A model generated the notes under the pieces. The model saw only the letters and a program-made list of their open reading frames with translations, was not told the origin of the DNA and searched no databases. Both the position numbers and the translations under genes were made by a program. From Friedmanniella luteola (GTDB taxonomy: Bacteria > Actinomycetota > Actinomycetes > Propionibacteriales > Propionibacteriaceae), in NCBI RefSeq assembly GCF_900105065.1, contig NZ_LT629749.1:2728001-2792000 (forward strand): a stretch of DNA of 64,000 bases. The letters run 5' to 3'. This document shows, piece after piece, positions 60,150-64,000 of the stretch (position 1 is the first letter of the stretch; the number at the start of each line of letters is the position of its first letter).

Positions 60150-61367
60150 GTGCTCGCGATCGTCGCGCCCGGACAGGGCGCCCAACAACCCGGCTTCCTG
60201 CGACCCTGGGTCTCGGAACCGTCCTTCTCCGACCGGCTGGGCTGGTTGTCGGCGGTCTCCGGCCTCGACCTGGCCCACTACGGGACCGAGGCCGACGCCG
60301 AGACGATCCGGGACACCGCCGTGGCCCAGCCGCTGCTGGTCGCGACCGGCCTGCTCGCCGCGCTGGAGCTGTTCCCGCACCCGGCGGACGCCTTCCCCTT
60401 CATCGGGGTGGCGGCCGGCCACTCGGTCGGCGAGATCACCGCCGCTGCCGGGGTCGGGGTCCTGTCCGCCGAGCAGGCGATGGTGTTCGTCCGCGAGCGC
60501 GGCCGGGCGATGGCGGAGGCCAGTGCCGTCACCCCGACCTCGATGACCGCGGTCATCGGCGGCGACGCGGACGAGGTGCTCGCGGCGCTCGAGGCGCAGG
60601 GGCTGACCCCGGCCAACTTCAACGGCAGCGGCCAGGTCGTCGCGGCCGGCACGGTCGACCAGCTCGCGGCGCTGGCTGCCGCGCCGCCGAAGCGGGCCCG
60701 GCTGATCCCGCTCAGCGTCGCCGGGGCCTTCCACACGGTGCACATGCAGCCGGCCGTCGGCCGGCTGGGCTCCCTGGCCCGCGCCATCTCCACCCACGAC
60801 CCGCGGGCGCGGCTGCTCTCCAACGCCGACGGCCAGGTGGTCCACGACGGCCAGCAGGTGCTGCGCCGCCTCGTCGGCCAGGTCGCCACGCCCGTCCGCT
60901 GGGACCTCTGCATGGCGGCGATGGCCGACCTCGGCGTCACCGGGCTGCTCGAGATGCCGCCCGCGGGCACGCTGACCGGCATCGCCAAGCGCAACCTCAA
61001 GGGCGTCGAGCTGTTCGCCCTCAACACCCCCGACCAGCTGGAGGAGGCGATGGAGTTCGTCCGCCGGCACGGCGGCACGGCGTCGTCCTCCCCGATCGCG
61101 GGCAACCCCACCTGGCGCCTCGTCGTCTCCCCCGGCAAGGGCCAGTTCACCCGGACCGAGGACATCGAGGCCGACACGGTGCTGCCGCTGGACAGCACCG
61201 TCGGCGTCGTCAAGAACCGGCGCGACGACATCGCCGTCAACGCACCCCACGGCGGCATCGTCGTCGAGTGGCTGGTGGAGGACGGCGACCCCGTCTCCCC
61301 CGGCCAGCCCCTGCTCCGGCTCCACCCGATGGTGGAGTCGGCCGACGCGACGGAGGTCACGCGATGA
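60150..61367 (+). CDS. fabD: Malonyl-CoA:ACP transacylase fused to a biotinyl-like domain
   Basis: A 405-residue FabD that loads malonyl groups onto ACP. The acyltransferase part (1 to about 310) has GQGAQ (Gln10), GHSVGE with Ser92, Arg115 (VRERG) and catalytic His195 (AFHTVHM). Residues about 321-392 form an extra barrel-sandwich domain like biotinyl/lipoyl carriers (WRLVVSPGKG .. VNAPHGGIVVEWLVEDGDPVSPGQPLLRL). The carrier motif EAMKM is replaced by KNRRD (355-359), with Arg at the modified lysine position, so it cannot be biotinylated there. Usual FabD length is about 300-320. GTG start; its stop overlaps fabH (ATGA). Confidence 0.92.
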   Translation: MLAIVAPGQGAQQPGFLRPWVSEPSFSDRLGWLSAVSGLDLAHYGTEADAETIRDTAVAQPLLVATGLLAALELFPHPADAFPFIGVAAGHSVGEITAAAGVGVLSAEQAMVFVRERGRAMAEASAVTPTSMTAVIGGDADEVLAALEAQGLTPANFNGSGQVVAAGTVDQLAALAAAPPKRARLIPLSVAGAFHTVHMQPAVGRLGSLARAISTHDPRARLLSNADGQVVHDGQQVLRRLVGQVATPVRWDLCMAAMADLGVTGLLEMPPAGTLTGIAKRNLKGVELFALNTPDQLEEAMEFVRRHGGTASSSPIAGNPTWRLVVSPGKGQFTRTEDIEADTVLPLDSTVGVVKNRRDDIAVNAPHGGIVVEWLVEDGDPVSPGQPLLRLHPMVESADATEVTR

Positions 61368-62398
61368 GCGCCCTGGACAGCTCCACCCCCCTGAACGTCT
61401 CGCAGGGGGCGAAGTTCTCGAAGATCCTGGGCATCGGCGGCTACCGCCCGCGCCGCGTGGTGGACAACGCCGAGATCGTCACCTACATCGACTCCACCGA
61501 CGAGTGGATCCGCACCCGCTCCGGCATCAGCGAGCGCCGCTGGGCGTCGGAGGACGAGACCGTCTCGATGATGAGCCAGGCCGCCGCCCGCAAGGCGATG
61601 GAGCGGGCGGGCGTCGAGCCGGGGCAGATCGACACGGTCATCGTGTCGACGGTCACCCACCTGCACCAGACGCCCGCGATCGCGACCACGATCGCCAGCG
61701 AGCTGGGCGCGAAGAACGCCGCGGCGTTCGACATCTCCGCCGCCTGCGCGGGCTTCTGCTACGCCCTGGCGATGGCCGACTCCTTCGTCCGGACCGGGGC
61801 CTCGAAGCACGTGCTGATCATCGGCGTGGAGCGGCTCAGCGACATGACGGACAAGCACGACCGCTCGACGGCGTTCATCTTCGCCGACGGCGCCGGCGCC
61901 GCGGTCGTCGGTCCGAGCGACACCCCGGCCATCGGGCCGGTGGTCTGGGGCTCCGACGGCGACCAGGCCGACCTGATCGCGCAGAGCGAGTCCTGGACCA
62001 CGGCCATGGACGCGGACGCGCACGACGACGGCCGGCCGCACTGGCCGATGCTGCGGATGAACGGCAACCCCGTCTTCAAGTGGGCGTCCTACACGATGGC
62101 CAAGACCGCCGCCGAGGCGATGGACGCGGCCGGCGTCAAGCCCGAGGACCTCGAGGTCTTCGTGCCCCACCAGGCCAACAACCGGATCACCGACGCCATG
62201 TTCAAGGCGCTCAAGCTGCCCTCGGACGTGGTCATCGGCCGCGACATCATCCACTCCGGCAACACCTCGGCGGCCTCCATCCCCCTGGCGATCGAGACCC
62301 TGCTCGAGTCGGGTCAGGCCCGCAGCGGCCAGACCTGCCTGATCATCGGCTTCGGCGCCGGCCTGGTCTACGCGGGACAGGTCATCCTGCTCCCCTGA
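61364..62398 (+). CDS. fabH: 3-oxoacyl-ACP synthase III
   Basis: A 344-residue KAS III that condenses acyl-CoA with malonyl-ACP to start fatty-acid chains. The catalytic triad is Cys128 (SAACAGFCYAL), His269 (VPHQANNRI) and Asn300 (IHSGNTSAAS). The N-terminal approx. 15 residues are an extension compared with E. coli FabH. The ATG overlaps the fabD stop by four bases. The presence of fabH in the operon is as in Streptomyces, unlike mycobacteria where it lies elsewhere. Confidence 0.95.
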   Translation: MSALDSSTPLNVSQGAKFSKILGIGGYRPRRVVDNAEIVTYIDSTDEWIRTRSGISERRWASEDETVSMMSQAAARKAMERAGVEPGQIDTVIVSTVTHLHQTPAIATTIASELGAKNAAAFDISAACAGFCYALAMADSFVRTGASKHVLIIGVERLSDMTDKHDRSTAFIFADGAGAAVVGPSDTPAIGPVVWGSDGDQADLIAQSESWTTAMDADAHDDGRPHWPMLRMNGNPVFKWASYTMAKTAAEAMDAAGVKPEDLEVFVPHQANNRITDAMFKALKLPSDVVIGRDIIHSGNTSAASIPLAIETLLESGQARSGQTCLIIGFGAGLVYAGQVILLP

Positions 62399-62474: not shown

Positions 62475-62720
62475 ATGCCCACCACCGAAGAAGTCCGCAC
62501 CGACCTCGCCGAGATCGTCAACGAGGTCGCCGGTGTCCCCACCGACGACGTCCAGCTCGACAAGTCGTTCACGGACGACCTCGACGTGGACTCGCTCTCG
62601 ATGGTCGAGATCATCTACGCCGCCGAGGAGAAGTTCGGCGTGAGCATCCCCGACGAGGAGGCCAAGAACCTCAAGACCGTCGGGGACGCGGTCGCCTACA
62701 TCGAGCGCGCCGCTTCCTGA
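62475..62720 (+). CDS. acpP: Acyl carrier protein
   Basis: An 81-residue ACP with the phosphopantetheine serine Ser40 in DLDVDSLSMVEI and the acidic helix II (EEKFGVSIPDEEAKNLKTVGDAV). It carries growing fatty acyl chains between FabD, FabH and FabF. AAGGAG lies about eight bases before the ATG. The gap of 93 bases to fabF contains a perfect 18-bp inverted repeat. Confidence 0.97.
   Translation: MPTTEEVRTDLAEIVNEVAGVPTDDVQLDKSFTDDLDVDSLSMVEIIYAAEEKFGVSIPDEEAKNLKTVGDAVAYIERAAS

Positions 62721-62813: not shown

Positions 62814-64000
<1,187 letters not shown>

Follow-up and report, generated by a model that had tools for sequence, protein, structure and literature searches.

The FabD protein encoded near the end of the 64,000-nucleotide stretch of DNA analyzed here (the window) carries a C-terminal tail that is probably a biotin-carrier domain turned docking module, which would hold FabD on the carboxyltransferase AccD6 beside the source of malonyl-CoA. 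Docking of FabD to AccD6 is suggested because the tail is usually inherited together with AccD6 and tends to disappear along with it. The Arg at the tip of the tail depends on the presence of AccD6, and the segment 182-193 of AccD6 depends in turn on the presence of the tail.

The fabD operon

The features of this region are summarized in Table 1. The operon has the order fabD-fabH-acpP-fabF-accD6 and extends beyond the window, accD6 being its last gene; the start codon of fabH overlaps the stop codon of fabD (ATGA). Pfam Acyl_transf_1 spans residues 7-284 of FabD and scores above its cut-off. The sequence GHSVGE at residues 90-95, invariant across 43 aligned proteins, is taken by us to be the GHSxGE nucleophile motif of the acyltransferase domain, and an acyltransferase domain with this motif, by which membership in FabD was judged, is thus present. 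The match to TIGR00128, the NCBIfam equivalog for FabD, has an E-value of 4e-47 and reaches 161 bits of the 260.9 required by its cut-off. The best solved relative is the FabD of S. coelicolor (1nm2, 317 amino acids), with 331.8 bits and a match up to residue 307. Since the TIGR00128 cut-off is missed, the predicted FabD function rests on the match to 1nm2 and on the position inside a fab operon. FabF scores above the cut-off for PRK07314 and, with 491.7 bits, just below the 493.75 of TIGR03150. The gene after fabF matches M. tuberculosis AccD6 with 666.7 bits, the next carboxyltransferase scoring 383.5 bits; as judged from these matches, it is the orthologue of M. tuberculosis AccD6, the carboxyltransferase subunit of acetyl-CoA carboxylase. 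On a tree, the AccD6 rows cluster as a single group, separate from three paralogues (the M. tuberculosis protein was left out of this tree). Upstream of fabD, between 56135 and 60004 of the window, translations inspected by eye suggest a sigma factor accompanied by an anti-sigma-like gene, along with one protein each of fasciclin-like, repeat/anchor and sortase-like type.

Table 1. Features of the fabD region, in window coordinates.
Feature	Position	Strand	Basis or remark
fabD ORF	60150-61364 plus stop	+	405 aa
FabD core (malonyl-CoA:ACP transacylase), residues 1-309	60150..61076	+	Pfam Acyl_transf_1, TIGR00128, 1nm2
Core loop 75-82 (FPHPADAF), part of patch P78/A81/A107/R219/D260	60372..60395	+	Conservation with vs without tail
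Linker, residues 310-319	61077..61106	+	Poorly conserved, length variable in alignments
Biotinyl/lipoyl-type tail, residues 320-393	61107..61328	+	PF13533, profile matches, hhalign
Arg358 codon, biotinyl-lysine position	61221..61223	+	Profile alignments
fabH	61364..62398	+	NCBIfam FabH above cut-off
acpP (acyl carrier protein)	62475..62720	+	NCBIfam 127.5 bits, cut-off 84
fabF	62814..64000, runs out of window, stop at 64073	+	PRK07314, TIGR03150
accD6	64076-65536, just past window end		Next gene after fabF

The tail as a carrier homologue and its distribution

An earlier note on this DNA had described FabD as fused to a biotinyl/lipoyl-like domain, and this description is confirmed: residues 320-393 taken alone score 31.4 bits against Biotin_lipoyl_2 (PF13533), above the cut-off of 29.8, and the full protein scores 27.9, below it. 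Against Biotin_lipoyl the tail alone reaches 19.8 bits, under the cut-off of 22.1. In the PDB the tail profile matches transcarboxylase 1.3S, E. coli BCCP and lipoyl domains; it also matches two stand-alone AccB-type carriers of other actinobacteria. Compared with the carrier domain of AccA3 from the host itself, the tail gives an hhalign probability of 95.9%, with one gap in ~70 columns. The replacement of the biotinylated lysine by Arg358, claimed in the same note, is borne out by the profile alignments to 1.3S, AccA3 and the two AccB-type carriers, in which Arg358 falls on the biotinyl lysine. The further claim that the alignment runs without gaps holds for the core around this lysine but not for all carriers, the AccB-type carriers having six extra residues that are absent from the tail. 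These six residues are presumably the "thumb" of the carrier.

At the biotinyl position, 149 of the 161 distinct tail-bearing FabDs have Arg and none has Lys, so that the modifiable lysine in the tip hairpin expected of a functional biotin or lipoate carrier is absent from all of them. Lys355 of the window's tail lies three residues from the biotinyl position and is not aligned to it. Among 57 tails less than 70% alike, Arg is present in 46, E373 in 57 and W374 in 54. No MKM-type motif was found. The tail is in this respect like BADC, a carrier homologue without a biotinylation motif. A true carrier exists in the host besides the tail, because AccA3 retains the normal EAMKM motif. One other genomic region (G000:C1:4207800-4211800, L295) contains a large open frame that matches biotin carboxylase and includes a carrier domain with EAMKM, additional to AccA3 and to a pyruvate-carboxylase-sized ORF.

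The earlier note took a FabD ending near residue 310 as the norm; in this class, tail-bearing FabDs are common. The survey of actinobacterial FabDs that it had proposed finds the tail widespread in the class, with strong matches (E up to 1.1e-13) in 123 of 394 genomes, about a third. At E up to 1e-5 the tail profile matches 192 of the 394, and two weaker rows that were checked are ordinary lysine-bearing carriers. The FabD core is present in 358 of the same genomes. A search of 236 genomes of the phylum with the profile gave 2 matches at 1e-12, one in the window's own genome and one in a genome of the same class. A search of the phylum with the single tail sequence gave 3 of 396 genomes; since the class profile search found far more, this low count reflects the sensitivity of the single-sequence search and which lineages were included. 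The tail is thus an accessory domain that is conserved, and not a peculiarity of one genome. It is not a product of chance, because it is conserved over the class and its dN/dS, calculated against seven relatives, is in the range of the core (~0.04-0.24 for the tail, 0.08-0.19 for the core).

FabDs were aligned from 246 of 248 loci and exact duplicates were removed, leaving 200 distinct genes, 161 with the tail and 39 without; two of these 39 are cut by contig ends and were excluded from later counts. A tree of 124 FabD cores (91 with tail, 33 without), built by a quick method with near-copies and truncated rows left out, has at least 10 changes of tail state, 6 of which are forced by well-supported branches. 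In the 17 tail-less loci inspected, the ORF stops soon after the core, and no remnant of a tail was evident by eye in the 420 bases that follow it; a tail search of 9 tail-less operon regions likewise found none. A type I fatty acid synthase was considered as a reason for tail loss and does not explain it, being found in 3 of 62 genomes, none of which has a FabD match. The genomes G214, G415 and G455, of the same order and without a FabD match, carry such a synthase; G441 has neither a FabD match nor a type I synthase match. Within the window's genus, one genome (G406, locus L389) has lost the FabD tail and lacks fabH in the operon, where fabD is directly followed by acpP; the single FabH-like match at a threshold of 1e-20 is 41% identical and lies elsewhere in that genome.

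Inheritance and coupled residues of the tail, AccD6 and the FabD core

A carboxyltransferase search of six genomes found the gene after fabF in the four with a tail and not in the two without. AccD6 was searched for in 80 genomes chosen because their FabD state was known. Of these, 40 carry the tail, 37 do not (27 come from the order's 38 genomes whose FabD match ends before the tail, and 10 from the class), and 3 have no FabD match. An orthologue was found in 36 of the 40 tail-bearing genomes, in 0 of the 37 tail-less and in 0 of the 3 FabD-less ones, counts that apply to genomes picked by known coordinates and not at random. The best matches fall into two clear groups. Orthologues have E-values of 1.3e-160 or lower and 59-100% identity; in genomes without an orthologue the best E-values lie between 1.1e-86 and 9.8e-118, and the others among the matches listed have at most 48% identity. 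Gene order was examined in 20 regions, and in one genome (G204) AccD6 is present and does not adjoin fabD. For 40 further genomes, likewise picked by known coordinates, only the operon neighbours were considered: AccD6 is linked in 25 of 28 tail-bearing genomes (2 of 30 tail-bearing loci, cut by contig ends, are not counted) and in 5 of 10 tail-less ones. Of 80 loci in named records, some of which probably come from genomes also sampled above so that the sets are not independent, 9 are too short for a judgement; AccD6 is linked in 68 of the other 71, all of which bear the tail.

Across independent pairs on the FabD tree, tail and AccD6 are concordant in a mean of 5.7 of 6 (median p 0.031 by sign test, range 0.031-0.219). 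Counts by clade indicate a very strong association close to the window and a weaker one at greater distance. Among tree rows for which both states are known, the 60-row clade surrounding the window has 39 with tail and AccD6, 1 with the tail only, 13 with neither and 0 with AccD6 only; the corresponding numbers outside this clade are 33, 3, 15 and 5. The tail occurs without AccD6 in 4 of the 40 searched genomes, and has no linked AccD6 in 3 of the 28 further genomes and 3 of the 71 named loci. Conversely, AccD6 occurs without the tail in 5 of the 10 further tail-less genomes and in mycobacteria. The tail is therefore not obligatory for AccD6, since mycobacteria combine AccD6 with a tail-less FabD; in M. 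tuberculosis the FAS-II locus Rv2243 to Rv2247 includes fabD and accD6, with a fabD (Rv2243) of 909 bp, according to the available excerpt of PMC8733736. Three genomes of one genus (G523, G521 and G537, loci L375, L376 and L377) keep the tail and lack accD6; their congener G444 has both and G468 neither. In this genus accD6 was possibly lost first and the tail later.

The dependence of the tip Arg on AccD6 is seen in the distinct tails whose AccD6 state is known: all 118 with AccD6 have Arg at 357 or 358, as do 4 of the 7 without it (Fisher 1e-4, calculated with the window's gene counted twice). R358 falls from 95% with AccD6 to 43% without, the largest drop among tail positions at least 90% conserved with AccD6, and the next-largest are those of R323 and H392/Y, each at 57% without AccD6. 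One tail that lacks the Arg (L211) comes from a locus where the AccD6 state is not known. On the side of AccD6, 60 rows from tail-bearing genomes, counted with duplicates, share 190 positions with at least 97% conservation. All five AccD6 sequences from tail-less genomes fully keep 165 of these; the only ones changed in every one of the five are V189 and R193. Both are in the segment 182-193, which we take to lie near the active site of the carboxyltransferase. Among 54 distinct AccD6 sequences from tail-bearing genomes, 53 have Arg at position 193 and one has Lys. M. tuberculosis AccD6 keeps V189 and has Ser at 193, and the coevolving AccD6 positions rest on this one mycobacterial sequence together with the five, which come from two families. 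On the tree the five form two clades nested among the AccD6 sequences of tail-bearing genomes, and because of this placement their changes look secondary.

The tail is also connected with the core of FabD. After three recent tail losses, picked for a clear tail-bearing sister, the FabD core has 99 changes versus 45 in the sister, and FabH 52 versus 47 (Fisher p 0.015). After deeper losses FabH accelerates too, and one pair (L232/L008) has no FabD speed-up (29:25). The corresponding changes in AccA3-type proteins are 17:16, 23:23 and 43:28 with one outgroup, or 49:45 with another. AccA3-type proteins and FabH, with little or no speed-up after the three recent losses, give little indication of being the partner; the putative partner is the carboxyltransferase AccD6 and not AccA3, the rate of which changes little. 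Biotin carboxylase and carrier domains are present in all 58 genomes tested, with or without the tail, and do not separate the two groups.

In one clade, the 47 tail-bearing rows share 122 core positions with at least 97% conservation, and 86 of these positions are fully kept in its 13 tail-less rows. In the same 13 rows D260 is kept in 8%, and P78, A81, A107 and R219 in 23%. From the order of secondary structures in the fold, we take these patch residues to lie at strand ends remote from the nucleophile. Several of the most basal tail-bearing FabDs lack the patch. Of eight patch residues, the 7 tail-bearing rows that lack AccD6 keep 5.86 on average, and the 5 tail-less rows that have AccD6 keep 3.4; these few rows fit an arrangement in which the patch would serve the tail and the tip of the tail would serve AccD6. 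Links between tail residues and the core loop within the tail-bearing rows were not upheld under tree-based pairing, and the core-patch pairings taken singly have a median p of at least 0.06 with six pairs, among the pairings listed.

A proposed docking module, its alternatives and known systems

We propose that the tail is a former carrier domain which, having lost the biotinyl lysine, turned into a docking module. The tail would pack against the FabD core, and its hairpin, with Arg358 at what is the biotin site of a true carrier, would contact AccD6. FabD would then be placed where malonyl-CoA is made and malonyl passed to the ACP of the same operon, the benefit being perhaps the supply or the control of malonyl-CoA. 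A more specific version can be put forward only tentatively: FabD and acetyl-CoA carboxylase might form a physical complex, in which the Arg fingertip of the pseudo-carrier sits where carboxybiotin would enter AccD6 and couples malonyl-CoA synthesis to ACP loading, through channelling or feedback. The earlier note had suggested a non-modifiable mimic that docks FabD to acetyl-CoA carboxylase. Co-inheritance, the dependence of the Arg and the AccD6 residue all argue for this suggestion; as a fixed association it does not stand, since AccD6 also occurs without the tail and docking is thus not obligatory. A widespread tail with a function already described would have spoken against it. The tail is indeed widespread, and we found no described function for it in the open literature; a search of open-access literature also found no report of a FabD with such a tail or of a FabD-carboxylase complex.

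The same co-inheritance and the same dependence of the Arg on AccD6 would be expected if the tail bound AccD6 as a brake, its pseudo-carrier competing with the biotinylated domain of AccA3 so that idle FabD restrains malonyl-CoA synthesis. BADC proteins, plant BCCP homologues without a biotinylation motif, were indeed first described as ACCase inhibitors, but the later view, in the accessible text of PMC11926652, is that they are assembly glue. The present data do not tell supply from inhibition, and we regard a brake as unlikely. An action of the tail in cis only, stabilizing or tuning FabD while the link to AccD6 arises from rewiring of the whole pathway of fatty-acid synthesis, is hardly a better candidate. 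It accounts for the core patch that follows the tail and for the FabD-specific speed-up after the three recent losses, but predicts neither the dependence of the hairpin Arg358 on AccD6 nor a tail-dependent segment in AccD6.

Docking to AccA3, the biotin carboxylase and carrier, or help in carboxylase assembly as by BADC, is improbable, although the tail is homologous to the carrier domain and BADC binds both BC and BCCP in the part of PMC11926652 that was available. Biotin carboxylase domains are found in every genome tested whether or not there is a tail, AccA3-type proteins are hardly faster after tail loss, and the tail lacks the six residues taken as the thumb, which is where the NMR paper, as excerpted, puts the BADC contact (PMC11926652). 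The repeated change of state on the tree, 10 times, might suggest that the tail is left over from an old gene fusion and is decaying by drift, but purifying selection in the tail is like that in the core and E373 and W374 are preserved (57/57 and 54/57 non-redundant tails), which makes such a relict very improbable indeed. The linkage of the genes could also be kept for expression balance alone.

The docking of FabD on AccD6 by a converted carrier domain, if correct, would bear on a simple need: malonyl-CoA has to pass from the carboxylase to FabD, and no report of a physical link between these enzymes was found in the open literature. In bacteria the tail would correspond to the carrier mimics of plants, here fused to the enzyme that acts next in the pathway, and would make a direct coupling of commitment and elongation testable, with named residues to mutate on both partners (FabD Arg358 and AccD6 Arg193).

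Among known systems, the biotin carriers (AccB, the C-terminus of AccA3, and 1.3S) have profile homology to the tail over the domain, but in the tail the biotinyl lysine is replaced. The FabDs of S. coelicolor and M. tuberculosis have the same core as the FabD studied here and no tail; their chains of 317 and 303 residues match it up to residues 307 and 300, respectively. M. tuberculosis AccD6 is an orthologue, but its FabD is tail-less and the tail-linked Arg193 is Ser; it is reported to give malonyl-CoA with AccA3 (PMC8733736, in excerpt). The closest known analogue of the tail is plant BADC. Both are carrier-type domains without the biotinylated lysine and both are linked to acetyl-CoA carboxylase, the tail by its co-inheritance with AccD6; BADC, as far as the text of PMC11926652 was available, is a plant protein in its own right, with BC and BCCP as binding partners. 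The tail, in contrast, is bacterial, is fused to FabD, is without the six putative thumb residues, and tracks the carboxyltransferase AccD6.
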